Assembly: GCA_028707005.1 (NCBI GenBank) | Contig: JAQTVB010000006.1 | Span: 1 to 49,817 of the forward strand | Direction: 5' to 3' | Length of the DNA stretch: 49,817 bases | Source: Patescibacteria group bacterium | GTDB taxonomy: Bacteria > Patescibacteriota > Patescibacteriia > Patescibacteriales > GWC2-42-12 | Part shown: one piece after another, positions 3,077-45,199 of the stretch | Position numbering within the stretch: position 1 is the stretch's first letter | How the letters are laid out: every line of letters starts with the position of its first letter | Translations under genes and position numbers: made by a program | Notes under the pieces: generated by a model | Database searches by the model: none | What the model was told of the DNA's origin: nothing | The model's input: the letters and a program-made list of their open reading frames with translations, nothing else

Positions 3077-3519
3077 GGAGAAAAAGACCCCTTTTGTCTT
3101 ATGCGGCGATTGCCTTAGGGCATTAGGATAAGATTAAGAAATGATTAATGCGCGTTAGACTGTTTGTCTCAAAAGGCGAATAGTCTAATCCGCATTAAGC
3201 GGGTAAGATAAAGTTTGAAAGGTCGATCTGCTTCAAGTGGAGACTTTATCAAATTAATTAATCAAACTTGTTTTTTAAATTCAATGCCCGGACTTGTTCC
3301 GGGATTAAATCCGGCGATTGATCGTCGCCAGATATCAAGCAAATCAGCAAGCTAACCGCAAAGACATTTTCGATTTATGATTTTCGAATTACGATTTCGA
3401 AATCTAAAATCGAAAATCTAAAATCGTAATTTTTTTGTGGGGCGGGATTCCGGTTGATTTGCTTAAGATCGCCTCATTTATGAGGCATGAATTTAAAAAC
3501 GAGTAAAGGAAAATTTACT
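3077..3519. other. Structured non-coding leader before the S-layer-like gene
   Basis: No gene was recognised in this stretch. It holds a hairpin with a 17-bp stem carrying two mismatches (3145-3161 with 3182-3198, 20-base loop), and a second stem GATAAAGT/ACTTTATC (3207-3214 with 3243-3250) that competes with AAGTTTG/CAAACTT (3211-3217 with 3263-3269). It also has a CCCGG/CCGGG hairpin near 3287-3305, a heptamer-built hairpin (3371-3433), and GCCTCAT/ATGAGGC (3471-3486) just upstream. No convincing sigma-70 promoter was found, so an ECF-dependent promoter is possible. Confidence 0.55.
3371..3433. repeat. Nine heptamers forming an inverted pair of arrays
   Basis: Four units of CGATTTT type (3371-3398) are followed by five units of the reverse type such as AAAATCG (3399-3433), then a T run. 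The two halves can fold back on each other, for example AATTACGATTT with AAATCGTAATT. It may act as a terminator or attenuator ahead of the S-layer-like gene. The unit matches the CGATTTT array inside the GT gene at 13576-13603. Confidence 0.7.
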
Positions 3520-8029: not shown

Positions 8030-8178
8030 ATTGCGGCCTTTGAGCCGCAATCCAGAAACGTGTTTGTGGCACTGAACCCTGGATTCCGGGTCACCTGCCC
8101 GCAACGCTTCGCCCTGGCCGCCTCGCCTTGCTTGGCTGGCGGGCTGGCTTGCGAGGCGGGCGGGAGCCCGGAATGACA
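8030..8178. repeat. REP-like cluster of nested GC-rich palindromes
   Basis: This spacer contains ATTGCGGC/GCCGCAAT (8030-8051), ATTCCGGG/CCCGGAAT flanks, and CCGCCTCGC/GCGAGGCGG inside. These are typical extragenic palindromic repeats. A spurious upstream reading frame crosses it from a TTG at 8128 and should not be used as the start of the next gene. Confidence 0.7.
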
Positions 8179-8190
8179 ATCAATGTCATC

Positions 8191-10425: not shown

Positions 10426-10429
10426 AGCC

Positions 10430-19810: not shown

Positions 19811-19972
19811 ATGCAAAAATTATCTATCGTGATTCCAATTTTTAATGAACAAAGCGCCATTTTGGAAATTTTAAAGAGAATTGAAGCGGTTGCATTGTCC
19901 TGGGAAAAAGAAATCATCCTGGTTGATGATTGTTCGAATGACGGCACGGGCTGGCGGCGGTTTGGCATATAG
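19811..19972 (+). pseudogene. Truncated GT2 (dolichyl-phosphate mannosyltransferase-like) remnant
   Basis: An ATG at 19811 opens a 53-codon frame beginning MQKLSIVIPIFNEQSAILEI and reaching EIILVDDCSNDGT, the conserved start of a DPM-like GT2 enzyme. It closely resembles the intact gene at 27618 (MPKLSIIIPVFNEKSTIAEI...EIIIVDDFSTDGT). After NDGT the similarity stops and a TAG follows within eight codons. In another frame the next bases read ARAGGGLAYSEV then stop, possibly the other end of the deletion. About 180 residues are missing, including the catalytic DxD region. The following GtrA domain is the usual partner of such a GT2. Confidence 0.85.
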
Positions 19973-19999
19973 TGAGGTTTAGCGTTAGAAAATAAAAAT

Positions 20000-21541
20000 A
20001 TGATAAATTTTTTACAAAAGTATAAACAAATAATAAAGTATCTTATCGCCGGCAGTGCGGCCGCTTTGGTTGATTTGAGCTTTTTATATTTTTTTACTGA
20101 TATTCTGGGTATCTGGTATTTAATCTCGGCTGGTTTAGCCTTGGTGGTGGCGTTTTTTGTAAGCTTCTTTTTACAAAAATTTTGGACTTTCAGGGATGGA
20201 AACAGAGAATTGATATATAAGCAAATGGGAGCTTATTTGGCCGTAGCCTTAACCAATTTTGTCATAAATCTTGCGTTGATGTATATTCTGGTTGATGGTT
20301 TAAAAATTTGGTATATGCTGGCGCAATTCATAACTAGCGGTTTAATCGCCATTGAAAGTTATTTGGTTTATAAAATTTTTATTTTTAACGGAAAAAGCAA
20401 ATTTCAAAACGGCAAAATAAAAATTTTAATCGCCACCGGCATCTACCCGCCGGATATCGGCGGGCCGGCGACCATGATTAAAGCTTTAGCGGAAGCTTTA
20501 AAAAAAAGTTTTGACATAAAAATAATTACTTACGCGGACGCGCATAGCTCTCCGGATGAAATAGTCAGAGTAAAAAAATCCGGTAAATTTTTAAAATATT
20601 TGATTTATTTTTGTAAAATGCTGAGGCTGGCGAAGCGGGCGGATATCTTGTATATAACTGAAACCTACAGCGTGGGCTATTTCGCTTATTTGATAAAAAA
20701 AATCACCGGTAAAAAATATATTGTTCGTTTTGCCGGAGATAGCGCCTGGGAGACGGCGGCGGGAGCCGGTTGGACCAATGATTATATCACTGATTTTCAA
20801 AATATAAAGTATGACGGGCGGATAGAAAAATTAAAAGCGCGGCGAAAGAAAATATTAGTTAATGCGGACGCGGTTATAGCGGTGAGCTGTTTTATGTCCA
20901 GGGTAGCGAAGATGATCGGCGTTGATGAAGAAAAAATAACCGTAATTTACAATGCCGTAGATTTTTTTCCCGCTCCGCCGAAACGTCAAGTTCCGTTAAA
21001 TCCGACTTTGATTTACGCGGGCAGATTGGTCCGCTGGAAAGGCGTGGCCATGCTGATTCAAGCGGTTCAAGCATTGAAGGAAAAAAGGCCGAATATTATT
21101 TTTGAAATATTAGGCGATGGGCCGGAAGAAGCCAGACTAAAAAAAATGGTCGGTGATTTGGGTCTGGCTAAAAACGTAATTTTTCGCGGCCGGGTGAGCG
21201 AGGAAGAGAGCCATGGAATTTTTGCCCGCTCCACTGTTTTTGTTTTAAATTCAAACTATGAGGGCATGCCGCACTCGGTTCTAAACGCCATGAGATCGGG
21301 TTTGCCCGTAATCACTACGCCGATTGATGGCAATAGAGAAGTCGTACGGGACGGCCAGAACGGCTTGCTGGCGCCGTACAACGAGCTGGAGGCTTGGGTG
21401 GCGGCGATAAATAAATTATTAAATGATCAAGGCTTGCAGCAAACCTTTTCTAATAATGGTTTGGAGATTGTAAAAAAATTCAAATGGAGCGAAGCGGTGG
21501 AGAAAACTGCGGTTTTAATCCGCGATCTCGGCCAACCATAA
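20000..21541 (+). CDS. GtrA-like membrane domain fused to a GT4 glycosyltransferase
   Basis: The 513-residue protein joins two normally separate units. Residues 1-131 form a GtrA-like domain with four membrane segments (starting FLQKYKQIIKYLIAGSAAAL, with QKFWTFRD in a loop), a family linked to moving undecaprenyl-phosphate-linked sugars. Residues 140-513 are a GT4 enzyme starting KIKILIATGIYPPDIGGPA. The donor motif is EGMPHSVLNAMRSGLP, so the second glutamate of E-x7-E is replaced by asparagine. The linker (GKSKFQNGK) resembles the heptamer-encoded peptides seen elsewhere. GtrA is usually next to or fused with a DPM-like GT2, and just such a gene lies broken upstream. The fusion would place the GT4 enzyme at the membrane. 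Confidence 0.88.
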   Translation: MINFLQKYKQIIKYLIAGSAAALVDLSFLYFFTDILGIWYLISAGLALVVAFFVSFFLQKFWTFRDGNRELIYKQMGAYLAVALTNFVINLALMYILVDGLKIWYMLAQFITSGLIAIESYLVYKIFIFNGKSKFQNGKIKILIATGIYPPDIGGPATMIKALAEALKKSFDIKIITYADAHSSPDEIVRVKKSGKFLKYLIYFCKMLRLAKRADILYITETYSVGYFAYLIKKITGKKYIVRFAGDSAWETAAGAGWTNDYITDFQNIKYDGRIEKLKARRKKILVNADAVIAVSCFMSRVAKMIGVDEEKITVIYNAVDFFPAPPKRQVPLNPTLIYAGRLVRWKGVAMLIQAVQALKEKRPNIIFEILGDGPEEARLKKMVGDLGLAKNVIFRGRVSEEESHGIFARSTVFVLNSNYEGMPHSVLNAMRSGLPVITTPIDGNREVVRDGQNGLLAPYNELEAWVAAINKLLNDQGLQQTFSNNGLEIVKKFKWSEAVEKTAVLIRDLGQP

Positions 21542-22690: not shown

Positions 22691-24193
22691 ATGCCTGGAA
22701 AAAAAATCACCTTGATATCGCTCTATCCTGAAAAAACTATGCCGATACCGCCGTCGGCTCTTTTGTATTTAGCCACGGCTTTAAATAAAAATGGCCATGA
22801 AGCTCAAATAATATATAAAGCGGCGGATGATCCGGCCGGGGTGATAAAAGAGGTAGACGGCTTTAAGCCCGACTTAATCGGCATGTCCGTTTTTACTGGT
22901 TTTTGCAATAAAAAATACGTTGAATTAAGCCGAATTTTAAAAGAGCGGGGCTATAAAATAGTCTGGGGCAACGCGCATCCAGCTTTAGTGCCCAGACAAA
23001 CTCTAAATGAGCCCAGTGTGGACTTTGTCGTGATTGGCGAGGGCGAAGAAACTATTGTTGATTTAACCAACAAGCTGGACGCGCCGGCGCAATATTATTC
23101 TATTCCGGGGATCGGCTTTAAAGATCAAAACGGTAAAATAATTATAAACGATAAAAGGAATTTTATTGACATGGATGATTATTTAATAGACTGGACGTTG
23201 GTCAATCTGGAAAACTATTTATTTCCTTATTTTTCCAATCGATACAAGCGAGTTTTATCCATAGTTACCTCGCGCGGCTGTCCCTTTAATTGTCAATTTT
23301 GCTATAATTTGGTTTTTAATACCAGGCGGTGGCGGGCGCACGACGCGGAAAAAATTGTCGCTAATTTACAACCAATCATTGAAAAGTATAAGGTTGATGC
23401 CATTCGTTTCTTGGATGATAATTTTTTTGTGGATAAAAAAAGGGCTTTGGCGATTGTTCGGAGCCTGGGGCTGCCTTATTCGGCCGATTCTAGGGTTGAA
23501 TATGTTGACGAAGAATTCGTAAAAAATCTTAAAGAAACCAAATGCTTGGAATTAACTTTCGGCTTTGAGTCCGGCTCGGAACGAGTTTTAAGAGAGGTTG
23601 TCCAAAAAGGAACGGGTACGGAAAAAATTATTAAGGCGGTGACATTATTAAAGAATTCAGGAACCATTGCCACCGGGGGCATAGTTTTCGGCCTGCCCTC
23701 CGAAACTAAAGAAGAATATTGGGAAACCATGAAGTTTATTGTGAGATTATTAGAAATCAACCGCGATGTCGCTTTTACCTGCGGTTGGTTTTTGCCCTAC
23801 CCCGGCACCGGCCTCTACGAAAAAGCGAAAGAAAAAGGATTCATACCGCCGGAAAAAGTCGAGGATTGGGATCAGTTTGATCGGTGGCGCGATGACTATG
23901 AGATGATTTGGCTTGATTGGGATTATAAGCAAGCGGTTAAATATTCAAGAAAAATCGTTCATCTCTTAGCCTTGGCCTATAAAAGAAATATTCCGATTAT
24001 AAAAAACATTTTAAAATGGAGAGTTGAGCATTTAAATTTTTATTGGCCGATTGACATTTATCTTTTTTCCAAGCTAAGAAATATTTATTTGTTCAGCGGC
24101 AATAATAATTTTATCAACCGTACCGTAAAAAAAATAATTATTAAAATAATTTTGCTTAAGCGAAACGGACAATCTGGAAAAAATATAAAATAA
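22691..24193 (+). CDS. B12-binding radical SAM enzyme
   Basis: The 500-residue protein has an N-terminal Rossmann-like cobalamin-binding region (about 1-140: SALLYLATALNKNGHEAQ, IGMSVFTG, VWGNAHPALVP, DFVVIGEGEE) and a radical SAM domain. The 4Fe-4S motif is C197-PFN-C201-QF-C204, with the downstream GFESGSERVLREVVQKG motif. It lacks the histidine of a classic DxHxxG box, so base-off cobalamin binding may be altered. Such enzymes methylate unactivated carbon or rearrange lipids and sugars. Sitting among glycosyltransferases, it may modify a sugar or the lipid carrier. The product is unknown. Confidence 0.88.
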   Translation: MPGKKITLISLYPEKTMPIPPSALLYLATALNKNGHEAQIIYKAADDPAGVIKEVDGFKPDLIGMSVFTGFCNKKYVELSRILKERGYKIVWGNAHPALVPRQTLNEPSVDFVVIGEGEETIVDLTNKLDAPAQYYSIPGIGFKDQNGKIIINDKRNFIDMDDYLIDWTLVNLENYLFPYFSNRYKRVLSIVTSRGCPFNCQFCYNLVFNTRRWRAHDAEKIVANLQPIIEKYKVDAIRFLDDNFFVDKKRALAIVRSLGLPYSADSRVEYVDEEFVKNLKETKCLELTFGFESGSERVLREVVQKGTGTEKIIKAVTLLKNSGTIATGGIVFGLPSETKEEYWETMKFIVRLLEINRDVAFTCGWFLPYPGTGLYEKAKEKGFIPPEKVEDWDQFDRWRDDYEMIWLDWDYKQAVKYSRKIVHLLALAYKRNIPIIKNILKWRVEHLNFYWPIDIYLFSKLRNIYLFSGNNNFINRTVKKIIIKIILLKRNGQSGKNIK

Positions 24194-27604: not shown

Positions 27605-27617
27605 TAATTGATCTTAT

Positions 27618-28313
27618 ATGCCAAAATTGTCCATAATTATACCAGTTTTTAACGAAAAAAGTACCATCGCTGAAATTATCAAAAGAATCGAGGCGGTTGA
27701 TTTGGGCGTGGCCAAAGAAATAATCATAGTTGACGATTTTTCGACCGATGGAACCAGAGAGATTTTAAAATCGCTGGAAAATAAATATAAAATAATTTAT
27801 CAGACAAAGAATTTAGGCAAAGGCGCGGCTTTGCGCGCCGGCTTTAAGCAGGCCACCGGGGATTGGCTGGTAGTGCAGGACGCCGATTTGGAGTATGACC
27901 CTGCTGATTTTAAAGACATGCTGAAAACGATAGCCAAGGCCGGAGCGTTAGTGGTTTATGGCTCTCGCCGTTTGGAGCATAATTATTTTAAAAGACGCCA
28001 TTCGGGTTATATTTATGCTTGCGGCGGGATTTTCATAACCTGGTTTACTAATTTGCTTTATGGCACTAAGATCACCGATGAGCCGACTTGCTATAAAATG
28101 TTTAGAACTGATTTTTTGAAAAGTATAAATTTAGAATGCAAGCGGTTTGAATTTTGTCCGGAGATTACGGCAAAAATTGCCAGGCGCGGCATAAAAATTT
28201 ATGAAGTGCCGATCAGCTATCGGCCGCGCCATAAGAGCGAAGGCAAAAAAATAAATTGGCGCGACGGTTTAGAGGCGCTTTGGACTTTATTAAAATATCG
28301 TTTTACAAAATGA
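27618..28313 (+). CDS. GT2 glycosyltransferase, polyprenyl-phosphate (DPM1-like) type
   Basis: The 231-residue protein starts MPKLSIIIPVFNEKSTIAEI and has IIVDDFSTDGT, the acidic DADLEYDP motif for metal and nucleotide, and a C-terminal RPRHKSEGKKINWRDG segment typical of polyprenyl-phosphate mannosyl/glucosyl transferases. These load one sugar onto undecaprenyl-phosphate, giving a donor for GT39-type membrane enzymes such as that at 29725. It is the intact relative of the truncated gene at 19811. No membrane segments follow the catalytic domain. The stop overlaps the next start. Confidence 0.9.
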   Translation: MPKLSIIIPVFNEKSTIAEIIKRIEAVDLGVAKEIIIVDDFSTDGTREILKSLENKYKIIYQTKNLGKGAALRAGFKQATGDWLVVQDADLEYDPADFKDMLKTIAKAGALVVYGSRRLEHNYFKRRHSGYIYACGGIFITWFTNLLYGTKITDEPTCYKMFRTDFLKSINLECKRFEFCPEITAKIARRGIKIYEVPISYRPRHKSEGKKINWRDGLEALWTLLKYRFTK

Positions 28314-29728
28314 TGGCCAATCAGCAAAAAAAAATTCTATTAATTAATCCGCCCTGGGTTATCGGTGAAGATAAAAATTTATGGAAGCAAGTCGGTAGCT
28401 GCTGGCCAAGCTTGGGTTTGGCTTATATCGCGGCCGTGCTTCTACGCGCCGGCTGTTCCGTAAAATGCGTTGATTGTTCCGCTGAGCGATTTACGGTTAA
28501 TGATACGATCGAGGCTCTTAAAAAGTATCAAGAAAATTTTGATTTTATCGGTTTAACCGCTACCACGCCTTTAATCAATAATGCCCTGGCGATTGCCCGG
28601 GCGATTAGAAAAATTTTTCCCAAGGCTAAAATAATTTTTGGCGGCGTCCACCCCTCGGTTTTGCCGGACGAAGTTATGGCGCGTCCGGAGGTTGATTTTG
28701 TGGTTGTTGATGAGGGTGAAGAGACTATGAAAGAATTGGTTCAGGGCGGTGATTTAAAAAGTATCTTAGGTTTGTGCTATAAAGAAAACGGGCAAATTAT
28801 TAAAAATAAACCAAGGCCGCTCTTGAAGAATTTAGACGATATTCCTCCGCCGGCTTATCATCTCCTGCCTATGGATAAGTATTATCCGGCGCTGGGGAGC
28901 TTCAAGCGCTTGCCGGCGATGATTTTATTCGCCACCAGAGGTTGTCCTGGCCGGTGCACCTATTGCCATCGCGCCTTTCGGGGGATTGTGCGCAAACGTT
29001 CGGCTCGGAGTATTTTAAGCGAAATTAAAATTCTTCAACTGAATTATGGTATTAGAGAAGTTGCTTTTTATGATGATACTTTTACTTTGTTTAAAGACGT
29101 GGTTAAGGAATTTTGCGAGACGATTATTAAAGAAAAAATCGACATTGCTTGGACGTGTTTTACTCGGGTTGACTGTGTTGATGAAGCAATGTTAATATTA
29201 ATGAAGCAAGCGGGTTGCCATTTAATTTTATTTGGCGTGGAATCGGCCGATGAGCAAATTTTGAGAAATATTAAAAAAAATATTTCCTTGGAGCAGGTAA
29301 AAAAAATAGTCAGGCTGTCGAGGGCCATAGGCATAGAAACACGCGCTTCTTTTATGTTTGGCAATCAGGGAGAGACGGAAGAAACCATAAAAAAGACCAT
29401 TGATTTTTCCCTCAAGCTTGACCCGGACGAGGTGCAGTTTAATATCGCTACCGCCTATCCCGGCACCGAATTTTTTAATTGGGCGAAAGAAAAGGGTTAT
29501 ATAAAAAATTTTAATTGGGACGATTACAGCATGTCCAACGTGGTATTGGAGTTGCCTAATTTAAGCAAAGAAAAATTGCAATATTATTATGGCTTGGCGC
29601 ACCGCCGATTTTATCTGCGGCCTAAAATAATTTTGCGCCGACTCGGCCGCGTTAGAACTTACGAACAATTAAAACAGGAAATTTGGGGCGCGCTGATGAT
29701 TTTTAATTTTATTTTTAATAAAAAATGA
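28310..29728 (+). CDS. B12-binding radical SAM enzyme
   Basis: The ATG at 28310 overlaps the preceding stop (ATGA). A TTG at 28256 would add residues that only read the upstream GT gene in another frame, so it is rejected. The protein has 472 residues with an N-terminal cobalamin-binding-like region (KKILLINPPWV, GLAYIAAVLLRAG, IIFGGVHPSVLPDEV, DFVVVDEGEET). The radical SAM motif is C212-PGR-C216-TY-C219, then GVESADEQILRNIKKN. It belongs to the HpnJ/BchE-like superfamily, which acts on lipids, tetrapyrroles or sugars. Translational coupling to a polyprenyl-phosphate GT suggests a modification of the lipid-linked sugar. Confidence 0.88.
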   Translation: MMANQQKKILLINPPWVIGEDKNLWKQVGSCWPSLGLAYIAAVLLRAGCSVKCVDCSAERFTVNDTIEALKKYQENFDFIGLTATTPLINNALAIARAIRKIFPKAKIIFGGVHPSVLPDEVMARPEVDFVVVDEGEETMKELVQGGDLKSILGLCYKENGQIIKNKPRPLLKNLDDIPPPAYHLLPMDKYYPALGSFKRLPAMILFATRGCPGRCTYCHRAFRGIVRKRSARSILSEIKILQLNYGIREVAFYDDTFTLFKDVVKEFCETIIKEKIDIAWTCFTRVDCVDEAMLILMKQAGCHLILFGVESADEQILRNIKKNISLEQVKKIVRLSRAIGIETRASFMFGNQGETEETIKKTIDFSLKLDPDEVQFNIATAYPGTEFFNWAKEKGYIKNFNWDDYSMSNVVLELPNLSKEKLQYYYGLAHRRFYLRPKIILRRLGRVRTYEQLKQEIWGALMIFNFIFNKK

Positions 29729-31071
29729 ACAGAGAAAAATGGCTGTTTTTTTGGTGGCAGAACAGAATCTTGATTTTAATTTTGGTCGGGTCTTTTTTGC
29801 TATGCCTGGCTTACTCTTTTTATTTTAAGATTGAACCGGCCGTTGATGCGTTGGCTTACGATAAAATTGCTCAAAATATCGCCAATGGCAACGGCTATCG
29901 AGAGAATTTGCAAACCGACCTAATCCATGATTCCGCCATTGCCCGCGTCGGACCGCTTTATGAATATTTTTTGGCCGGAATTTATAAGATTTTTGGCCAT
30001 CATTACGGTTCGGTTTGGACGATCCAAGCCATACTGCACAGCCTGGCCGCTTGGTTGGTTTATCTAGTATCAATTTTAATTTTTGCCGATAGCGAACAGC
30101 GTAAGAAGATAGGACTATGGGCGGCGGCAATGGTTGGTTTTTATCCGGATTTAATTGAAATTTCCGCGATGCTCATGACCGAAACATTGTATTTATTTTT
30201 CATTTGTTTGTTTTTGTATCTTTTTTTTCGCTTTTTTTACCAGCAAAAAAATTGGCTTTTAATTTTTTTGCTGGGCGCAGTTTCGGGTTTGGCGGTTTTG
30301 GCGCGGCCGCCGGTTTTATTTTTATTGCCGGTAGTTTATTTTTTGTTTTTTAGAAAAAAATTATTTTGGCAGGCCGTGGTTTTTTCCGTTGTTTTATTTT
30401 TGGTTTTTACGCCCTGGACAGCCAGAAATTATTTTACCTATAAAGAAATTATGCCTTTTGGCGCAGCCGGCAATTTTAATTTTTGGATAGGCAATTATCA
30501 CGGCGGCAGCGGTGAACAAGAGCCGACCGAAGAACATATTCAGTTTGCCGCCACGCACGGGGTTAAAGAAATCAACGGGGAATCAATCAGGCAGTTTAAG
30601 AGTTTTTTATTTAACCATCAGTTTGAGTTTATTAAATTAACTTTTTTAAGAATAAATAAATATTTCAGCATAATCAGGCCAATGGGATTTTGGTTTTACC
30701 AGGTCGGCTGGAGCCAATTTTTGTTTATAATTTCTTCGGCCTTGGTTTCTGTTTTTTTGTTTGTCTTGAGTTTGGGCGGAGCGATTAAGGCTTCTATGGC
30801 GCACGAGGAGAAACTCTGTTATTTATTGGCTCTGACGATTATTACTCCGTTGATAATTTTTATAACGGTGGTGGAAACCAGATATCGATTTCAAATTTAT
30901 CCTCTCTTGGCTATCTTCGCCGGGTATTTTATGGTTTTGTTAAAAAAAGAATCCAAGCGCTGGACCAATAAAATATTATGGCTGGCGATTGCTTTAATTT
31001 TCACTAACGGGCTGGTTGACTTAGTGTTGAGCCTGGCGAGATTGAAAGAGAGGCTGGGTCTCTTTTTTTGA
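29725..31071 (+). CDS. GT39-like membrane glycosyltransferase (GT-C fold)
   Basis: The 448-residue protein has about ten membrane segments and an N-terminal outer loop (YFKIEPAVDALAYDKIAQNI) that matches the position of the catalytic acid loop of GT39/ArnT-like enzymes. These use polyprenyl-phosphate sugars as donors on the outer face of the membrane. The usual Asp-Glu pair is replaced here by VDALAYD, so the exact catalytic residue is uncertain. It overlaps the radical SAM gene by four bases. A candidate terminator coincides with its last codons. Confidence 0.85.
   Translation: MNREKWLFFWWQNRILILILVGSFLLCLAYSFYFKIEPAVDALAYDKIAQNIANGNGYRENLQTDLIHDSAIARVGPLYEYFLAGIYKIFGHHYGSVWTIQAILHSLAAWLVYLVSILIFADSEQRKKIGLWAAAMVGFYPDLIEISAMLMTETLYLFFICLFLYLFFRFFYQQKNWLLIFLLGAVSGLAVLARPPVLFLLPVVYFLFFRKKLFWQAVVFSVVLFLVFTPWTARNYFTYKEIMPFGAAGNFNFWIGNYHGGSGEQEPTEEHIQFAATHGVKEINGESIRQFKSFLFNHQFEFIKLTFLRINKYFSIIRPMGFWFYQVGWSQFLFIISSALVSVFLFVLSLGGAIKASMAHEEKLCYLLALTIITPLIIFITVVETRYRFQIYPLLAIFAGYFMVLLKKESKRWTNKILWLAIALIFTNGLVDLVLSLARLKERLGLFF
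31045..31069 (+). terminator. Candidate intrinsic terminator at the end of the GT39-like gene
   Basis: AAAGAGA pairs with TCTCTTT around a 7-base loop (GGCTGGG), followed by seven Ts reaching the stop codon. The stem is AT-rich and so only moderately strong. It would separate the upstream run from the SPASM gene at 31124. Confidence 0.5.
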
Positions 31072-31123
31072 AATTAGCCTGTCATAGAAATGCGCAGAAG
31101 GATAAAATTTAATATAGTCATGT

Positions 31124-32221
31124 ATGATTGCAGAAACGTCCAAATATTTTAAATATTTTAAAAATCAGCTTTCTTTTGAAAAAAAATTGAATTTTTTGAT
31201 TCTTTATGTTACCTCCCGTTGCAATTTTAAATGCCGCACTTGTTTTTTCCATCAAAATATTAACCGGGAGGATGATTTATCTCTTGAAGAATTCGATCGG
31301 ATTTCCCGAAAATTAGGCCGATTTTCCATTTTGCTTTTTGGGGGAGGGGAGCCTTTTTTGCGGCCAGATCTCAAAGAAATAGCTGTGCTTTTCGCGCGTC
31401 GGAATAAAATTGACACTCTTTATATTCCAACCAATGGTTTTTTGGTCGAGAAAATTTTGTTAACCGCAAAAACATTGCTTGAGAGTTTACCTGATCTTAC
31501 AATTGCGATAAATCCTTCTTTGGATGGCTTGGAGACTTATCATGATGGGTTGAGAGGCATGCCGGGAGCGTTTAAGCGCGCCATGGAGACGATCAGGGGT
31601 TTAACCAGCTTAAAAAAGCGATATAAGAATTTACAGGTCATTGTTAATTCGGTGATTCATCAAGAAAATATTGATGAGCTGAAAAAGTTGGCGGTTTTCT
31701 TAAGGCAGTTTGATATCGATTACCACGCTTTTGAAGTTTTAAGAGGCGAGGCGCGCGATAAAATGTTGATCGCGGCTAGTTTGCAAGCAGTGCAAGAGAT
31801 GCACGATTTTATTTTGGAAAATCGTCGATGGTATTTTAAAAAACAAGTCATAAAAAATTCCCTTTTTGGTTTTATTAACCGATTGGTGACGCTTGGCCAT
31901 CTTGCTTATACTCAGTATTTGAAAGAATTGGCTCTCTCCGGCAAAACCTGGCCGATGAAATGCGCCGCCGGAGATTCCATAGCGGTTATCTATCCCAACG
32001 GCGGTGTCGGTCTTTGCGAGTTGTTGGAGCCGGTTGTAAATTTAAGGCAACATGATTATAATTTAAATCGGATATTATTAAGTCCCTTAGTCAAAGATCG
32101 CCGCGAAATAATATGTAAAAATCGCTGTAGTTGCACGCACAATTGTTTCATAAACGCTAGTATCGCCCGCGATTGGCAGACCGCGTTAAAGCTGCCTTAT
32201 TTTTATTTTAAAGGCAGATAA
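31124..32221 (+). CDS. Radical SAM/SPASM-like enzyme
   Basis: The 365-residue protein has the radical SAM cluster motif C33-NFK-C37-RT-C40 directly after YVTSR, then FGGGEPFLRPDL and a partial TIM barrel. The C-terminal part has extra cysteines (KCAAGDS, VGLCELLEP, CKNRCSCTHNC) that fit a SPASM-type auxiliary cluster domain. These enzymes often modify peptides, but also sugars and cofactors. No precursor peptide gene is seen beside it. It starts a new transcription unit after the candidate terminator. Confidence 0.88.
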   Translation: MIAETSKYFKYFKNQLSFEKKLNFLILYVTSRCNFKCRTCFFHQNINREDDLSLEEFDRISRKLGRFSILLFGGGEPFLRPDLKEIAVLFARRNKIDTLYIPTNGFLVEKILLTAKTLLESLPDLTIAINPSLDGLETYHDGLRGMPGAFKRAMETIRGLTSLKKRYKNLQVIVNSVIHQENIDELKKLAVFLRQFDIDYHAFEVLRGEARDKMLIAASLQAVQEMHDFILENRRWYFKKQVIKNSLFGFINRLVTLGHLAYTQYLKELALSGKTWPMKCAAGDSIAVIYPNGGVGLCELLEPVVNLRQHDYNLNRILLSPLVKDRREIICKNRCSCTHNCFINASIARDWQTALKLPYFYFKGR

Positions 32222-32238
32222 TGCTTTAAATTTTAATT

Positions 32239-33174
32239 ATGAAGTTCAGCGTCATTATACCTACTTATAATAGGTGCGCGACATTAATGGAGACTTTGTC
32301 CGCCATCGAGTTTCAAACTTTTTCTAAAAATGAATTTGAGGTTATTGTCGTTGATGATGGGAGTGCGGATGGTACAAGGGTCGCAGTGGAAAATTTTTTA
32401 AAGAAGAATCTTTTTAATATTAAATATTTTTTTAGGCAGCATGAGGGGCCGGCTCAAGCCAGGAATTTTGGTATTGATAATTCCCGGGGAGAAATAATTC
32501 TGTTTTGCGGAGATGATACTATTCCCGATTCCAGGCTGATAGAAAATCATAATGTAGTTTACCAACGGGAGAAAGAAGACAAGATGGCGGTTCTGGGGAT
32601 CGCGCTATGGGACAAAACGGTGCTAATTGGCGATTTTATGAGATTTGTCGCGTCGGCTGGGCCGCAATTTCATTTTAATAATATAAAAAATATTAATAAT
32701 GTCGGCTGGGATCATTTTTATACTTGCAATATTTCCATTCCTCGTTCAGTGATCGGCGATTTGCGATTTGACGTGAATTATCCTTATGCGGCCTTTGAAG
32801 ACATTGATTTCGGCTGGCTTTTAGCCAGACGGGGTTTAAAGCTTTTCTTTAATCGGCAAGCGATCGTTCACCATAAGCATTTTTATGAACCGGCATCGCT
32901 TTATCAGCGGATGTTTTTAATCGGCAAAAGTTTTGTTATTTTTAGCCACAGATATCAAAAAAATAAATTTGATCAGTGGCGTTTGAAAATAAAATACGCG
33001 CCTTTTGATTTTTTTTTCGGAACGGGGTTGGTAATTTTTAATTTTTTTAGCCGGCAGTTAGCCGGCTGGGCTTGGCTGAAGAAAAATAATCAGCGGTGGC
33101 ATTGGTTTTTCAATGTTTGTTATTATTATTCTTCTGGTATGAAGGAGCAATACGCCATCAATAAAAAATTATGA
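32239..33174 (+). CDS. GT2-family glycosyltransferase
   Basis: The 311-residue protein starts MKFSVIIPTYNRCATLMETL with VVDDGSADGT and FCGDDTIPDS (DxD type), and AFEDIDFGWLLARRG (ED motif), all standard for GT-A fold GT2 enzymes. A C-terminal tail (about 240-311) is hydrophobic and basic and may contact the membrane. Its last four bases overlap the next GT2 gene. The transferred sugar is unknown. Confidence 0.9.
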   Translation: MKFSVIIPTYNRCATLMETLSAIEFQTFSKNEFEVIVVDDGSADGTRVAVENFLKKNLFNIKYFFRQHEGPAQARNFGIDNSRGEIILFCGDDTIPDSRLIENHNVVYQREKEDKMAVLGIALWDKTVLIGDFMRFVASAGPQFHFNNIKNINNVGWDHFYTCNISIPRSVIGDLRFDVNYPYAAFEDIDFGWLLARRGLKLFFNRQAIVHHKHFYEPASLYQRMFLIGKSFVIFSHRYQKNKFDQWRLKIKYAPFDFFFGTGLVIFNFFSRQLAGWAWLKKNNQRWHWFFNVCYYYSSGMKEQYAINKKL

Positions 33175-33902
33175 GTCAATTGGCCAAAAATAAAAAAATT
33201 ATCGTGATTTTGCCGGCTTATAACGCCGAAAAGACCTTGAGAAAAACCTTGGATGATTTGCCCATGGCCTGGGTGGATGATATTATTTTGGTTGATGACG
33301 CGAGCCAGGATAACACGGTTGAGTTGTCTAAAAGCCTGGGGCTTAAAACTTTTGTCCACCCCAAAAATAGGGGCTATGGCGGTAACCAGAAAACTTGTTA
33401 TAAGAATGCGCTAGCGCTGGGCGCGGATATTGTTGTTATGGTTCATCCAGACCATCAATATGACCCTAAATCCATTCCGGACTTGGTTGGGCCGCTGTTG
33501 TCAGATGAAGCTGATGCGGCTTTCGGGTCAAGGATGATGATTCCCCGGAACGCCATTCGCGGGGGCATGCCTTATTGGAAGTTTGCGGCCAATATTTTTT
33601 TGACCGCGATAGAAAACGCGATTTTAGGCTTTCATTTAAGCGAATACCATTCTGGCTTCAGAGCGTACAGCAGTCGGGTTTTGAGGGCGGTTCCTTTTGA
33701 AGAAAATTCCGATAATTTTGTTTTTGACACGGAAATTATCGTTCAGATGAGGAAAGCCGGATTTTTTAGAATAAAAGAAATTTCCATTACTACCCGTTAT
33801 TTTCCCGAGGCCTCGATGATTGGCTTGCGGAAAAGTATTTTTTATGGGCTGTCTATTCTTTGGGTTATGATTAAATATTTATTATGGAGGATCAAACATT
33901 AA
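33171..33902 (+). CDS. GT2 glycosyltransferase, DPM1-like
   Basis: The 243-residue protein has IIVILPAYNAEKTLRKTL, ILVDDASQDNT, and VHPDHQYDPKSI in place of the usual DADxxxDP metal motif. GFRAYSSRVL is also typical of the family. These enzymes make polyprenyl-phosphate sugars. The gene overlaps both neighbours: four bases with the GT2 gene before and 19 bases with the methyltransferase after, so the three are probably translated together. Confidence 0.88.
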   Translation: MSQLAKNKKIIVILPAYNAEKTLRKTLDDLPMAWVDDIILVDDASQDNTVELSKSLGLKTFVHPKNRGYGGNQKTCYKNALALGADIVVMVHPDHQYDPKSIPDLVGPLLSDEADAAFGSRMMIPRNAIRGGMPYWKFAANIFLTAIENAILGFHLSEYHSGFRAYSSRVLRAVPFEENSDNFVFDTEIIVQMRKAGFFRIKEISITTRYFPEASMIGLRKSIFYGLSILWVMIKYLLWRIKH

Positions 33903-34855
33903 GCAAGCATTTTTGCTATGCCTGCGGGGGCGTTTTACGCTATCTATTTTCCGCCGCCGATTATATCAGCGCTGAAATTTTTGCCGTTTATCAATGTCCG
34001 GCCTGTTCTTTGGCGGCAACCAAGCCAAACCCGCGGCCGGCCGATTTCGCGAAATATTACCCTAGGCTATATTATGGCAGCAGAAAATCGTTTACCGACA
34101 GCTTGATCAACAATTCCCGACGGCGGAAAATAAAAAAAATTGTCGTTATAGCAAAGAAGAGTGTTGATAAAAGATCGCTTTTGGACATAGGCTGTGGCGA
34201 CGGCGGTTTTATTGCCCTTTTAGCCGCCGCTGGCTGGCGAGTGGCGGGTACGGAAATGGCCGCTCCAGGCAGCCATAAGCAGTCAGCCTCGGTCTCAATC
34301 TATCGCCGGGAACTTCTTAGTTGCGGTTTTGCCAAGGCCGATTTTGATCTGGTCACTATGTGGCATTCTTTAGAGCATTTGGCCGAGCCGTTGATTTATT
34401 TGCAAGAGGTCGGCAGGGTTTTAAAAAAAGAAGGGGCGCTTTTGCTGGAGGTGCCGAATTTTAATTCCTGGCAATCGGTAATTTTTAAAAATAACTGGTT
34501 TCATTTAGACGTACCGCGGCACATTTTCCACTACGATAAAAAAAGTTTGGAATTGATTTTAAAAAAGGCGAATTTCAAAATCACCAAAGTTTCTTATGGC
34601 TCTTTAATCTACGGCCTGTTTGGCTGGATTCAAAGTTGCCTTAATGTTTTTTGCCGAAGAAAGAATCTTTTATTTGATTTGTTAAACGGCAAAGCCGGCT
34701 GGGCTGGTTTAAAGACGCGTTCGATTGGCGCCAAAGATTTTGCTTTTATTTTTATTTTAGCGATTCCGGCGGCAATTTTTTCGTTGCCGTTTTTTATGTT
34801 GGAAGTTATCTTTAAGAGGGGAGGCATTATTACCGTTTGGGCGGAGCGCGAATGA
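33884..34855 (+). CDS. SAM methyltransferase with N-terminal zinc-ribbon-like motif and membrane tail
   Basis: The 323-residue protein opens with a CYACGG...CPACS pair of CxxC knuckles (about residues 11-45) that could bind zinc. A class I methyltransferase domain follows with motif I SLLDIGCGDGGF, TMWHSLEHLAEPLIYLQEVGRVLKKEG and LEVPNFNSWQ. The last 50 residues are hydrophobic (FAFIFILAIPAAIFSLPFFM), suggesting membrane attachment. Such zinc-ribbon methyltransferases act on sugars in other bacteria. The gene overlaps the preceding GT2 by 19 bases. Confidence 0.87.
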   Translation: MEDQTLSKHFCYACGGVLRYLFSAADYISAEIFAVYQCPACSLAATKPNPRPADFAKYYPRLYYGSRKSFTDSLINNSRRRKIKKIVVIAKKSVDKRSLLDIGCGDGGFIALLAAAGWRVAGTEMAAPGSHKQSASVSIYRRELLSCGFAKADFDLVTMWHSLEHLAEPLIYLQEVGRVLKKEGALLLEVPNFNSWQSVIFKNNWFHLDVPRHIFHYDKKSLELILKKANFKITKVSYGSLIYGLFGWIQSCLNVFCRRKNLLFDLLNGKAGWAGLKTRSIGAKDFAFIFILAIPAAIFSLPFFMLEVIFKRGGIITVWAERE

Positions 34856-34867
34856 AAAATTAATTAT

Positions 34868-36364
34868 ATGCTTAATTTTTTTAAAAAACACCTTTTTGCA
34901 TTGCTGCTGTCGGCGATTATTTTGGGCGTTTTGATTTTTTCTTTGCCTACTTTAACCACTAAACCGCAGCTTTGGACGGATGAAGCTTTGAATATTGAAC
35001 TGGCCAGGAATTTTTTATCTTATGGCCGTCTGGGTTTAGTCGTTGAACCGGGCGTATTCTCCGACGTTCCCTTTTTACTGCAATCAACCGGCTATCCGCT
35101 CACCATTGCTTTGGCCGCCGTTTTTAAAATTTTTGGCTTTGGTTTAGCGCAGGCTCGGTTATTCGTTCTGGCCCTGATGATTATTTTGTTGGTTTTGGTT
35201 TATTGGTTCGCCAAGAAGTTGTTTGGCAAGACGCAAGCGCTTTGGGCCACGCTGTTAATCGCGACCTTTGCCCCATTTTACGGTGACGGGCGGTGCGTTA
35301 CCGGAGAAATTTCAGGTTTTATTTTTCTTATTTTCGGCCTTTATTTTTTGTTTTATCCGCCGGAGCAAAATGACCATTTAAAAATATTCAACCCCAGGCA
35401 GTTTTTAGCCGGTATTTTTTTAGGATTGGCTATTGTCACCAAGCCATCAGTATATTTAATGCTTTTGCCGGCCGTTTTCATCACTTTATTTTTTTTAAAG
35501 CGCCGATTTTACAGCAGAGCCTTTAACGTTTTGATTGGTTTGGCGCCGGCGGCATTTTTTTGGCTGATTTTAAACGTTCCGAATTTTCTGGCTAAAGAGC
35601 CTTGGCTTAAAATTATAAATTATTATAAAAATCCTTTCGCGCCCTTATCTGTTTCCGGCAATGTCTTTTTAAATTTTGCCGGTCTGCCGCACAACACGAC
35701 TTTGATTTATTTTTTTGTGTTGCTGGCCATAATTTTTTGGGCGGTTTTAAAGCGGGACGTTTTTTTAAAACCGCATCAAGGCTTATTGTTTTTTTTCGCC
35801 AGCTACGGCGCCTTAGCCCTGATTTATTTTTTTAAAAGTCCTGGCTGGCTGCGTTATTTAATAGCCGTTGAGCTTTTTACTTTTATAATTTTAGGGCCGG
35901 CGCTTAAGGCGATTTTGAGTTCATTGAATTTTAAAAATTATTGGTTTGGCAATAAGGCAAATTTATTGGGCGCCGCCCTGCTCTTTTTGGCCGCGTTTCA
36001 GACCTGGCATCTTTTTAACGGGGCTGATTTATTTTATTCAGACACCCCCGAGAGGGTGGCTGAATTCGTTCAAAGCCGCTCGTTAGGCAAAACGGTGGGA
36101 ATTTACAATGCCCTTACTATTGCCTGTTTGATTTCTCCGGAGAAAAAATTTCAAATGATTGACATCATGCTGGGCTTGCCGGTTTTAGGAAAAGATTTTT
36201 TGGCGGCCGAAGAGAATAAATGGCCGGATTTTATCGTTTCCTCCCCGGAAGAAGCGCTGTTTATTTCCCATAAAAGCGCCATCAAAAAAAAGTATGAATT
36301 AGTTTATTCAAACGGCGGCTATGACGTTTTTTATTTAAAAAGCGAGCGGAATAAACTAAAATAG
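34868..36364 (+). CDS. GT39-like membrane glycosyltransferase (GT-C fold)
   Basis: The 498-residue protein has about ten membrane segments. The first outer loop carries PQLWTDEALNIELARNFL, with the Asp-Glu catalytic pair (DE) expected in GT39/PMT-like enzymes, followed by STGYPLTIALAAVFKIFG. It probably transfers a sugar from a polyprenyl-phosphate donor outside the membrane. The two GT2 genes nearby could make that donor. It begins 12 bases after the methyltransferase. Confidence 0.87.
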   Translation: MLNFFKKHLFALLLSAIILGVLIFSLPTLTTKPQLWTDEALNIELARNFLSYGRLGLVVEPGVFSDVPFLLQSTGYPLTIALAAVFKIFGFGLAQARLFVLALMIILLVLVYWFAKKLFGKTQALWATLLIATFAPFYGDGRCVTGEISGFIFLIFGLYFLFYPPEQNDHLKIFNPRQFLAGIFLGLAIVTKPSVYLMLLPAVFITLFFLKRRFYSRAFNVLIGLAPAAFFWLILNVPNFLAKEPWLKIINYYKNPFAPLSVSGNVFLNFAGLPHNTTLIYFFVLLAIIFWAVLKRDVFLKPHQGLLFFFASYGALALIYFFKSPGWLRYLIAVELFTFIILGPALKAILSSLNFKNYWFGNKANLLGAALLFLAAFQTWHLFNGADLFYSDTPERVAEFVQSRSLGKTVGIYNALTIACLISPEKKFQMIDIMLGLPVLGKDFLAAEENKWPDFIVSSPEEALFISHKSAIKKKYELVYSNGGYDVFYLKSERNKLK

Positions 36365-36386: not shown

Positions 36387-37520
36387 ATGAAGCTATACTA
36401 TTTATCAAATTTAAGAATACCGACCGAAAAGGCGCACGGCATACAAATAGCGAAAATGTGTGAAGCTTTCGCTTTAAACGGTTTAGACGTGGAGCTGATT
36501 GCGCCCGTTAAATTCAATAAAATTGATCAAGATCCTTATAAGTATTATAATGTTAAAAAAAACTTTAAAATAACTAAGCTATTTTGCCTGGACACTTTAA
36601 GATTTTTTCATAATAAAATCAGCTTTTTTATTCAAACGATTATTTTTTTAATTTCCGCTAGAATATTTTTGTCTTTTAAACAAAAAGGAGTTCTCTATAC
36701 GCGAGAAATATGGGCCGGTTTATTTTTTAGCGGTTATGTGGTTGAGATCCATTCTTTGCCCAAAAGAATAAACTGGCTGGTTTTAAGGGGTTTGCGCCAA
36801 GCCGGCCGGCTGCTGGTTTTAACTGATTTTTTAAAAAAAGAAATAGCCGCCCTGGGCATTGATCAAAATAAAATATTTGTTTCTCCCGACGGAGTTGATT
36901 TAAAGAATTTTGATATTGATATTGGCCAAGGCGAGGCCAGAAAAATGGTCGGCCTGCCTGCGGATAAAAAAATAATTTTGTATAGCGGCAGCTTCTATTT
37001 ATATGACTGGAAGGGAGTCGACGTTTTGCTTGATACCGCTAAATATTTATCCGATAATGAATTGATTGTCCTCTTGGGCGGCCAGGCGGAAGAAATAAGC
37101 CAAATTAAGCGGCGCGGCCCAAGCGACAGAGTGTTGTTAATCGAGCGACAGTCGTATAAAAAAATCCCCGTTTATTTGAAAGCGGCCGATACTTTGGTTT
37201 TGCCGAACAAAAAAGGGGATAGCATGTCGGAAAAATACACTTCGCCCTTGAAGCTTTTTGAGTATATGGCCAGCCAGAGGCCGATTGTGGCCTCGGACTT
37301 GTTTTCAATTAGGGAAATATTAAATGAAAACAATTCGATTTTAGTTGAATCGGATAATCCGGCGAGCTTGGCCGAAGGTATAAAAAAGGCGTTAGAGGAT
37401 AATCAATTGGCGTCGCAAATTTCCGGACAAGCCCTGAAAGATGTTCAGCAATACAGCTGGCAAAAAAGGGCGGAGAAAATAATTGAATTTATTAATTTTT
37501 CACATCATTATGGAAAATAA
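36387..37520 (+). CDS. GT4-family glycosyltransferase
   Basis: The 377-residue GT-B enzyme starts MKLYYLSNLRIPTEKAHGIQ, with donor-domain motif KYTSPLKLFEYMASQRPIVASD. The C-terminus reads LASQISGQALKDVQQYSWQKRAEKIIEFINFSHHYGK. A second, partly similar copy of this C-terminus lies downstream at 39022-39149 behind a radical SAM gene. The last residues after FIN look added by that junction. Its end overlaps the radical SAM start by 11 bases. Confidence 0.9.
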   Translation: MKLYYLSNLRIPTEKAHGIQIAKMCEAFALNGLDVELIAPVKFNKIDQDPYKYYNVKKNFKITKLFCLDTLRFFHNKISFFIQTIIFLISARIFLSFKQKGVLYTREIWAGLFFSGYVVEIHSLPKRINWLVLRGLRQAGRLLVLTDFLKKEIAALGIDQNKIFVSPDGVDLKNFDIDIGQGEARKMVGLPADKKIILYSGSFYLYDWKGVDVLLDTAKYLSDNELIVLLGGQAEEISQIKRRGPSDRVLLIERQSYKKIPVYLKAADTLVLPNKKGDSMSEKYTSPLKLFEYMASQRPIVASDLFSIREILNENNSILVESDNPASLAEGIKKALEDNQLASQISGQALKDVQQYSWQKRAEKIIEFINFSHHYGK

Positions 37521-39021
37521 AATATTATTGGTTTCCTTTCAGAGCAATACTGATACGATCGGCTTGAAATATATACAGTCGTATCTGGTGAGAAATAACA
37601 TAAACTCACGTATTTTGTTTATACCGCAGTTCAACAAAAAAGACCTTCTCTCAGTTGAAAAATTTTTGAAAGATTATGAACCAAAAATTATAGGCATTAG
37701 TTTAATGAGTCCTGAATTTTTTAAGGCAAAAGAGTTTTCATTATATGTTAAAAAGGTTTTTCCGGAGATCATAATCGTCTGGGGCGGGATACACCCCACA
37801 GCTGATCCCAAGGAATGCATAAACTACGCCGATTATGTTTTTATGGGTGAATCTGAACAGGCATATTTGGAATTTGTAAACGCAATCTCGGAAAATAAAC
37901 CCGTAAATGACATATCAAATTTAGTATATAAATCATCTAAGGGGATTAGCATAAATAAATTGAGGCCATTCAATGAAAATTTGGATGCATTGCCTTTCCC
38001 GGAACACTTTCCTCAAAAAAGTTTAGTTTTACATAATGGAAATATTATAGAATTAAGCAAACATTTTTTTAAAAAATATACAAGATATTCGGGGAAATTT
38101 TATAGCTTGACAACAACCAGAGGATGTCCTTTTTCTTGCGCTTATTGTTGTAATTCTGTTTTTTCTAAATTATATGGCATAACTAAAGTTAGAAAACGCA
38201 GCGTTGAAAATGTTATTGAAGAAATGGAACATGCGATTCAACTTTTTCCTGATATAATTTACTTTAATATTCAAGATGATAATTTTTTCTCGTATGATAT
38301 TCATTGGATGAAGTCTTTCGCGGACGCATCTGAAAAAAAGATTAAAAAGATGATTGTTTGCAGAACAACCCCCGCGCATTTAAACGAAGAAAAAATTTTT
38401 ATACTAAAAAGAGCAGGATTATCATGGATATTTATGGGTTTGCAGTCTGGTTCGCCAAGAATCAATAAAGAAATATACAAAAGATTTGTACCAAACGAGA
38501 AATTTATTGAAGCCGCTAAAGTAGTTTTTAAAAATGGTATAGCCGGCTATTATGATGTGATTCTTGATAACCCTTACGAAACCGAACAGGATATAATGGA
38601 AACAATAAATGTTATTTTGAAGATTCCAAAACCATTTATGTTGCAATTATTTTCATTATGTTTTTACCAAGGAACTGAAATTTATGAGCGGGCGTTAAAG
38701 GAGAATTTAATAATTGAAAATCCTCTCAAAAAAAACTATGCTAAATATCAACCAACCTATCTTAATAAAGTTATAAAACTTTGTCCGGTTCTTCCAAGGT
38801 GCTTTATTAAATCAATGGTAATAAATAGAAAGTCTCAATGGGCAAAAATTTTAGTAAATTCGATTTATCTTCCATCTATCCTGATTTTAGAACCATTCGT
38901 ATGGTTCAAATTAATTTTAATCTCTTTTGATTATAATATTTTTAGTACTGTTAATATGATTTATGCGTTTTTCAAAACAGGATTTAGTGAAATGATTTTA
39001 AAAAAATTTTTAAGGAAATAA
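37510..39021 (+). CDS. B12-binding radical SAM enzyme, apparently inserted
   Basis: The ATG at 37510 (MENKILLVSFQSNTDTIGLK) is preferred over a TTG at 37483 that overlaps the GT gene. This gives 503 residues with a cobalamin-binding-like N-terminus (IGISLMSPEF, IVWGGIHPTADP, YVFMGESEQAY) and the radical SAM motif C206-PFS-C210-AY-C213, then GLQSGSPRINKEIYKRF. By eye it uses more AT-rich codons (ATA, AGA, TTA) and fewer GCC/GGC words than neighbours. It is flanked by two copies of a GT C-terminus. Together this suggests a recent acquisition. Its substrate is unknown. Confidence 0.87.
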   Translation: MENKILLVSFQSNTDTIGLKYIQSYLVRNNINSRILFIPQFNKKDLLSVEKFLKDYEPKIIGISLMSPEFFKAKEFSLYVKKVFPEIIIVWGGIHPTADPKECINYADYVFMGESEQAYLEFVNAISENKPVNDISNLVYKSSKGISINKLRPFNENLDALPFPEHFPQKSLVLHNGNIIELSKHFFKKYTRYSGKFYSLTTTRGCPFSCAYCCNSVFSKLYGITKVRKRSVENVIEEMEHAIQLFPDIIYFNIQDDNFFSYDIHWMKSFADASEKKIKKMIVCRTTPAHLNEEKIFILKRAGLSWIFMGLQSGSPRINKEIYKRFVPNEKFIEAAKVVFKNGIAGYYDVILDNPYETEQDIMETINVILKIPKPFMLQLFSLCFYQGTEIYERALKENLIIENPLKKNYAKYQPTYLNKVIKLCPVLPRCFIKSMVINRKSQWAKILVNSIYLPSILILEPFVWFKLILISFDYNIFSTVNMIYAFFKTGFSEMILKKFLRK

Positions 39022-39149
39022 GCATCGCGCCCGGCAATATGATATTTAATTGCGGTTTAACCGAAAAAATATCCGAGCAGGCTTACCGGGATGTTAAAAA
39101 ATATACTTGGGAAAGAAGAGCGGAGAGAATAATTCGATTTATTGAATAA
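39022..39149 (+). pseudogene. Remnant of a GT4 C-terminus
   Basis: The frame ending at the TAA 39147-39149 reads LTEKISEQAYRDVKKYTWER then RAERIIRFIE. This matches the end of the intact GT4 at 36387 (LASQISGQALKDVQQYSWQK then RAEKIIEFIN). There is no start codon suited to a gene and no upstream domain, because the radical SAM gene ends directly before it. It is best read as the leftover tail of an ancestral or duplicated GT4 gene after an insertion or recombination. Confidence 0.82.
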
Positions 39150-39223: not shown

Positions 39224-39940
39224 ATGTCAACCATACATTTTAGGAGATATATTATAAAGAAAGCGCGCCAATCGGGGTTAATGCCGATTATTAATTCAAT
39301 TTCCAATTTTCGGTTTCTTTTGGTAAAAAAATATTGTTTATTGAGAAAAAAAAATTGTATTGAATATATCTATAATGATAATTTTTTTAAGATTGTCAAT
39401 CGTAAATACATTCTTAAGGATTCGCCAAAAATTATAGCCGAAGTTGTTAAGGCTTGTTATGCTCCTAAAAGTGTTATGGATGTTGGTTGCGGCAGCGGTC
39501 TTTATTTGCGTGAATTGAACAAGTTGGGCATAGAAATTTTTGGCGTTGATGGCAGTGCGGCGGCTTTAAGGAATTTGGTAATTGATAAAAACAAATTTTT
39601 ACTTCAAGATGTCACTTGTAATTTTGTCTTACCGCGAAGATATGATTGCGTGATCTGTTTTGAGGTGGGCGAACACATTCCGACGGTAAAATCCGATATT
39701 TTAGTGGATAACATCATCAAGATCAGTGATTTGGTCATTTTCGCCGCCGCCTCAAAAGGCCAGGGCGGGCGTGATCATATAAATGAGCAAAGCGCGCAAT
39801 TTTGGGTTGATATTTTTGATAAAAAAGGATATTCTTTATTAGCAGAGGATACAAAAAAGATTAGGGCAACATTATCTGATCGCGAAGCGGCTTTTTGGTT
39901 GATAGAAAACATTTTAGTTTTCAAGAGAAGGGCGGGGTAG
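39224..39940 (+). CDS. Class I SAM-dependent methyltransferase
   Basis: The 238-residue protein has an N-terminal basic stretch, motif I SVMDVGCGSGLYLRELNKLG (about residues 85-104), IFGVDGSAAAL with the acidic residue of beta-2, and CVICFEVGEHIPTVKSD. This fits the Methyltransf_11/23 group. It has its own extended -10 promoter and so may not depend on upstream genes. A 112-base spacer with another promoter follows. The acceptor is unknown; a sugar is likely from context. Confidence 0.85.
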   Translation: MSTIHFRRYIIKKARQSGLMPIINSISNFRFLLVKKYCLLRKKNCIEYIYNDNFFKIVNRKYILKDSPKIIAEVVKACYAPKSVMDVGCGSGLYLRELNKLGIEIFGVDGSAAALRNLVIDKNKFLLQDVTCNFVLPRRYDCVICFEVGEHIPTVKSDILVDNIIKISDLVIFAAASKGQGGRDHINEQSAQFWVDIFDKKGYSLLAEDTKKIRATLSDREAAFWLIENILVFKRRAG

Positions 39941-44047: not shown

Positions 44048-45199
44048 ATGTTTAATAAAAAAGCAAAATTATTCCAAAATAGTTCATCGTTCGTTATAGA
44101 TTCGTCTCTCTTAAAGGCCAGTGTTACCTTTTTATCAAATATTGTAAGAACCAAAATATTTAATATTGACGCTAAGCGGGGACCACTTTTCATTTCTTGG
44201 CTATGCACTTACAGATGCAATGCCAATTGCCGGTTTTGCAATACGCATGAGATGAATAAGCGTTACCCCGAGGGCCTTTCTTTGAAGCGAGCCTTGGAAA
44301 TAGCGCATGAAATCGGTCGGGCCAAAACTTGGGTAGTGGGGTTTACCGGCGGCGAAGTATTGCTCTGGCCTTACCTTTTTGATGTTATAAAAGTTTTAAA
44401 ACAATATGGAGTAAAAGTATATTTTATAACCAACGGCTTGTTATTGAAGAAGAATGCGGAAAAAATTATTGAGGCCGGCGTAGATACCGTAGTGGTAAGC
44501 TTGGACGACTTAAGCGCCGCAGAACACGATGATAACCGAAGAGTGCCCGGAATATATAACTTAGCCATCGAGGGCATTAAGTTTTTAAAAACGAACAGAA
44601 AAGGTCAAAAGCCGATTATCAAATCAACTACCGTGCTTTCAAAAAAAACCTACCCTAAAATTGAACAAATTATCAGTCATTTGGCCGAGCTGGTTGACGT
44701 TACCGCCGTTCAGCCGGTAGTAACCGGCTATGCCAATGGTCCGCACGATATCAGTCAAACGGAAAAATCGTCTTTTTTGCCGGAGCCAGGAAAGAAGCGC
44801 TTGGTTGAGGAGGCCATTCTGCGGCTAACCAGACGGTATCCCGCGTTTAATAATTTCTATTTTAAAAATATTTCCACCTATTGGTTTAATCCGGAAAAAT
44901 TGTTAAAAATTAATTGCTGGTCGCCCTTTTTGCGCTTATTGATAATGCCGGACGGAAGCGTTTCTCATTGTCCGGTCAATCCGAAATATTCAACCGTGGG
45001 AAATCTGAAAAGCTTATCTCTTATGGAGGCTTGGAACAGCCAAGCCATAAAAAGACAGCGCGAAGAAATACGCAGGCATAACAATAACTGTGTTTGCTGG
45101 AGCCAGGACACTTCCTTTAACGCTTTTCTCCACGGTTTACCGTTAATCAATAAACTGCCCATCTTTAAAAATAAGAAATTTAATAATTCAAATTTATGA
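44048..45199 (+). CDS. Radical SAM/SPASM-like enzyme
   Basis: The 383-residue protein has C57-NAN-C61-RF-C64 and TGGEVLLWPYL typical of radical SAM enzymes. The C-terminal region has CWSPFLRLLIMPDGSVSHCP, GNLKSLSLMEAWNS and a final CVCW, the layout of a SPASM or twitch domain. In other glycan loci such enzymes act on sugars or peptides. No small peptide substrate is visible. It overlaps the next GT2 gene by four bases. Confidence 0.88.
   Translation: MFNKKAKLFQNSSSFVIDSSLLKASVTFLSNIVRTKIFNIDAKRGPLFISWLCTYRCNANCRFCNTHEMNKRYPEGLSLKRALEIAHEIGRAKTWVVGFTGGEVLLWPYLFDVIKVLKQYGVKVYFITNGLLLKKNAEKIIEAGVDTVVVSLDDLSAAEHDDNRRVPGIYNLAIEGIKFLKTNRKGQKPIIKSTTVLSKKTYPKIEQIISHLAELVDVTAVQPVVTGYANGPHDISQTEKSSFLPEPGKKRLVEEAILRLTRRYPAFNNFYFKNISTYWFNPEKLLKINCWSPFLRLLIMPDGSVSHCPVNPKYSTVGNLKSLSLMEAWNSQAIKRQREEIRRHNNNCVCWSQDTSFNAFLHGLPLINKLPIFKNKKFNNSNL

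Follow-up and report, generated by a model that had tools for sequence, protein, structure and literature searches.

An orphan glycosyltransferase gene end beside an AT-rich radical SAM gene: a probable mosaic breakpoint in a Patescibacteria surface-glycan locus

The stretch of 49,817 nucleotides analyzed here (positions 1 to 49,817 of contig JAQTVB010000006.1, assembly GCA_028707005.1, from a Patescibacteria group bacterium; hereafter the window) carries a glycan locus in which a radical SAM gene stands between an intact GT4 glycosyltransferase gene and a short stretch reading RAERIIRFIE, which resembles the RAEKIIEFIN of the GT4 product (Table 1). The first-pass annotation had taken these two tails for two copies of one GT4 C-terminus left on either side of an inserted gene. 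Are the two flanks copies of a single GT4 end, or did they come to lie on both sides of the radical SAM gene in another way?

Table 1 Features of the glycan locus discussed in the text (positions in the window).
Feature	Position	Strand	Evidence or remark
Scar of a GT2 gene (46 initial and a few final codons)	19811..19993	+	G007 has an intact GT2 there (78% aa)
Radical SAM and GT2 pair, clean 2.1 kb indel	31077..33185	+	Lacking in G007 at this site; flanks clean
PMT-type membrane glycosyltransferase	34868..36364	+	Last gene of the G007-shared block (73% aa); DNA similarity stops at about 36241
Intact GT4 (GT-B) glycosyltransferase, 377 aa	36387..37520	+	Pfam PF00534 (Glycos_transf_1) 1.8e-22
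Maximum-likelihood AT-rich segment	37477..39436		GC 0.294 vs 0.395 around
B12-binding radical SAM gene	37513..39021	+	Pfam PF02310 3.2e-17, PF04055 5.4e-20
Orphan tail (3' end) of a different member of the GT4 family	39048..39149	+	About 33 codons and stop
Methyltransferase	39224..39940	+	64% orthologue in G173 (another family), different neighbours

The stretch downstream of the radical SAM gene translates as SIAPGNMIFNCGLTEKISEQAYRDVKKYTWERRAERIIRFIE* in a frame that is open from 39021 to 39149. Aligned locally to the neighbouring GT4, it reaches a BLOSUM score of 90, while shuffled sequences gave a mean of 25 (sd 3.8) and a maximum of 42. In addition, a tail profile built from 25 GT4 tails, from which the remnant had been excluded, recovered it with E=1.4e-14 (model positions 16-48, window 39048-39146). 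These two results indicate that the resemblance is not due to chance, and the GT4-like tail reported at this place is indeed present. By the same E-value it is a truncated gene end with intact homologues, as expected of a relic. The SW..RA..II.FI motif, which is general to the GT4 family, is intact in the remnant, and the tails of several relatives score against it as high as or higher than that of the neighbouring GT4; the GT4 tail of G007, a genome of the same family but of another genus, scores 94. No matching tail was found in close genomes, where the best reached 56% aa. The remnant is apparently a fragment without evident function, and it is recent enough for its reading frame and conserved motif to have persisted. 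Out of 192 genomes containing about 38 strong tails of this GT4 family, it is the only internal orphan, and a recurring mechanism targeted to the tail is thus unsupported. Tail matches in G028, G173 and G176 were rejected as further orphans because all three sit at contig ends.

We then compared the two tails directly. They are identical at 57 of 90 aligned nucleotides (63%) and differ at the other 33, and the encoded peptides share 16 of 30 residues (BLOSUM 88), with conservative replacements and no stop. When the tail of the neighbouring GT4 was allowed to decay neutrally in silico to an equal distance, none of 20,000 simulations attained the observed similarity, and 82% of the trials gained a stop. 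This indicates that the tails accumulated their differences under selection, each as part of a working gene. As a DNA repeat, they share at best 24 nt at 75%. With the topology of the GT4 tree fixed, placement of the remnant beside the window GT4 was disfavoured (lnL -4.5, AU 0.014), as was placement on the stem of the congeners (AU 0.005); the other positions were not separated by 34 residues. Judged by its sequence, the remnant is the end of a different member of the same GT4 family and not a decayed copy of its neighbour. The description of the flanks as two copies of a GT4 C-terminus was consequently misleading, since the simulations and the tree placement point to different family members rather than to one gene split or duplicated by an insertion.

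The intact gene was assigned to GT4 by its Glycos_transf_1 domain. It had been described as ending with RAEKIIEFIN; the motif is contained in the open reading frame, but seven further residues (FSHHYGK), encoded across the radical SAM start codon, close it. In the GT4 tree the enzymes of the congeners G001-G003 and of G007 form one group and that of the window lies elsewhere, its named relatives being from Giovannonibacteria and other Parcubacteria; forcing it into the G001-G003/G007 group was rejected (AU 0.003). By this phylogenetic placement the window GT4 is of a foreign clade and not of the type of its sister genomes. Its C-terminal part is closest to congener G002 (69% aa), and a MaxChi crossover signal of 35.8 between the N- and C-terminal parts was obtained (permutation null, 95% level 15.7). 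Most members of the family give comparable signals, however, and neither grouping is rejected by the tree of the C-terminal part, so that domain chimerism is no more than suggested.

The radical SAM gene starts at ATG 37513, the mechanically called reading frame beginning at TTG 37483, and overlaps the GT4 stop by 8 nt. Its product has both domains and an intact CxxxCxxC motif (CPFSCAYC), which places it among the B12-binding radical SAM enzymes. The domain pair and the motif are common to this protein and the HpnJ/BchE/AprD4-like enzymes; in contrast, the matches to NCBIfam models (HpnJ, BchE, AprD4 and others) all fall far short of the cut-offs. The best relative of solved structure is AprD4 (6fd2, E 5e-6). 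From the context, our guess is that the enzyme modifies a glycan or a lipid-linked precursor. At the thresholds used, searches of 192 relatives, 380 genomes of the phylum and 111 of the order gave no homologue above about 34% identity (best 33-34%), and neither the relatives nor the phylum sample nor the order yielded a donor in which a GT4 adjoins this gene. Plasmids gave only matches of 24-28%, and the literature searched yielded nothing specific on radical SAM transfer in Patescibacteria glycan loci. The glycan locus contains five radical SAM genes in all (22691-24193, 28310-29728, 31124-32221, 37513-39021 and 44048-45199), three of them with a B12-binding domain.

Base composition sets the radical SAM gene apart, as the first-pass annotation had noticed. 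With a GC of 0.301 and a GC3 of 0.278 it ranks last in GC3 among the window's complete genes, the others ranging from about 0.36 to 0.56 (GT4, 0.415). At the scale of the genome this value is low but not unique, being equalled or undercut in 6 of 127 sampled open reading frames of at least 200 aa. The maximum-likelihood AT-rich segment does not halt at the tails: it runs across the remnant into the start of the methyltransferase gene, and its right-hand boundary is gradual. Composition therefore gives no cassette bounded by the tails, and it supports a separate history of the AT-rich stretch. A uniform composition and a history shared with the neighbours had been named as observations that would speak against an insertion; instead, the radical SAM gene departs from its surroundings in composition, and no close relative of it turned up in the genomes searched.

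Comparison with related genomes shows where conserved gene order ends. In G007 the genes from 27618 to 34868 are orthologous at 73-87% aa, except for the pair at 31124-33174, which is absent there, and the genes to the left of the block 27617-36241 match at 42-67% aa. Being much closer to G007 than the left-hand genes, this block was likely exchanged between lineages. Among 145 genomes, an orthologue of the upstream gene at 34868 was found only in G007. After the PMT orthologue, G007 has one intact GT4 and no radical SAM gene, and synteny then ends. A relative with an uninterrupted GT4, as the first-pass annotation had suggested looking for, thus exists, but its GT4 is of another clade (42% to that of the window). 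On the other side, the genes that follow the radical SAM gene, as far as about 44,000, likewise lack close matches in congeners; the gene is therefore no solitary insertion into otherwise conserved surroundings. The foreign-clade GT4, the radical SAM gene without close relative and a methyltransferase with its orthologue in G173 make the region rightward from the GT4 a patchwork, in which neighbouring genes have the different phylogenetic histories expected around a relic. Elsewhere in the locus, the GT2 scar represents an internal deletion of about 500 nt. Together with the clean 2.1 kb indel, it indicates that the locus both gains and loses genes. The idea that the glycan locus takes up modifying enzymes as cassettes holds as far as gene traffic is concerned, given these indels and scars, but nothing indicates a dedicated cassette mechanism.

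In all, we favour, with a probability of about 0.8, a mosaic breakpoint in a surface-glycan locus of fast turnover in this Paceibacteria-like genome, where repeated replacement and deletion left a truncated GT4 as a fossil. The locus would formerly have held another GT4 of the same family, beside or instead of today's GT4, and the recombination that imported or relocated the AT-rich radical SAM gene would have deleted this former GT4 except for its last 33 or so codons, arrival and truncation presumably being a single event. The fragment, its family, its not being a decayed copy of the neighbour, the placement of the intact GT4 in a foreign clade and the indels and scars of the locus are established; no genome with an intermediate or donor arrangement was found, and the order of events was not observed. 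Against this explanation stand the AT-rich segment, which outruns the tails, and the low support for the congener stem (AU 0.005), which would have been the simplest source of a replaced resident. Of the proposed gene insertion with partial replacement of the host tail, the gain of a gene with partial loss of a GT4 remains the best reading, but the two tails come from different family members. The event is of a known kind, an ordinary gene-shuffling fossil rather than a new insertion mechanism. In pneumococcal cps capsule loci the first 153-174 nt of aliD persist as a pseudogene, along with other small fragments (PMC5111408). There, too, the short end of a lost gene lies within a polysaccharide locus that exchanges genes; in contrast, the fragment of the window is a glycosyltransferase 3' end beside a radical SAM gene, in Patescibacteria, and has no close strain with an intact gene. 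Orphan gene ends, clean indels and clade switches are physical traces of the remodelling of surface-glycan genes in ultra-small bacteria.

The former GT4 may have stood in either of two places. Two GT4s may have stood in tandem, the second being lost except for its tail while the radical SAM gene joined in the same or a separate event. This version of the mosaic breakpoint is quite possible, though its chances are somewhat short of even: contig C111 of G024 carries two family members 2.1 kb apart, the remnant represents a distinct lineage and internal deletions are known in this locus, but most genomes with the family, including G001-G003 and G007, have a single member. Alternatively, a single resident GT4 was replaced, the present GT4 and the radical SAM gene having arrived together on a single donor segment, with the end of the resident left as the orphan tail. 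We hold this second version tentatively. It would account for a foreign-clade GT4 where G007 has one of the congener type, and for the G007 tail scoring above the neighbour's against the remnant. However, the difference in GC3 between the GT4 and the radical SAM gene does not suggest one piece, the window GT4 is nearest to congener G002 in its C-terminal part, and the AU test speaks against placing the remnant on the congener stem.

We also considered that exchange in Patescibacteria glycan loci might occur preferentially at the 3' end of this GT4 family, with acceptor domains and modifying genes swapped up to the conserved tail and an orphan tail as by-product. Crossover signals between the N- and C-terminal parts of the window GT4 and of several relatives are suggestive of this, and we regard it as unlikely. 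Very unlikely is an assembly chimera. The window belongs to a draft assembly (43 contigs) and shows shifts in composition, but a chimera would require two internal junctions, the overlap of GT4 stop and radical SAM start is what a normal operon would show, and composition changes gradually on the right.

Even less credit goes to the idea that the radical SAM gene was inserted with duplication of its target, in an event of the Nobusato/Kobayashi or a transposon-like type, so that both tails would copy one GT4 end. The tails do bracket exactly one gene and belong to the same family, but their 63% identity, the selection-like conservative character of their differences, the rejected neutral decay, the short DNA repeat and the disfavoured placement beside the neighbour all argue against it, and no transposase or integrase was seen among the open reading frames scanned nearby. 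A recent target duplication is refuted, as the flanks are not copies of the same target. In the insertions with long target duplication of Nobusato et al. 2000, as described in PMC1643837, a gene likewise lies between two related flanking stretches; according to that description the flanks copy one target, whereas those of the window are diverged family members. A repeated C-terminal motif beside a foreign-looking gene should thus be tested for divergence before target duplication is invoked. Least probable of all is that the remnant is a functional short reading frame (36 codons from ATG 39039) or a selected recombination landing site. Its frame is open and its motif intact, but no ribosome-binding site was seen upstream of ATG 39039 and the other 191 genomes have no internal orphan counterpart.

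Some further genes of the window deserve mention. Just downstream of the GT2 scar, at 20000-21541, a GtrA/DPMS membrane domain is fused to a GT4 enzyme. A protein of 1224 aa encoded at 3487-7161 has no Pfam match, a GC above that of most of the window and a 63% aa match in congener G001. At 8128-12727 lie the genes of two adjacent 765-aa proteins, each combining a Wzy_C O-antigen-ligase domain with TPR repeats.
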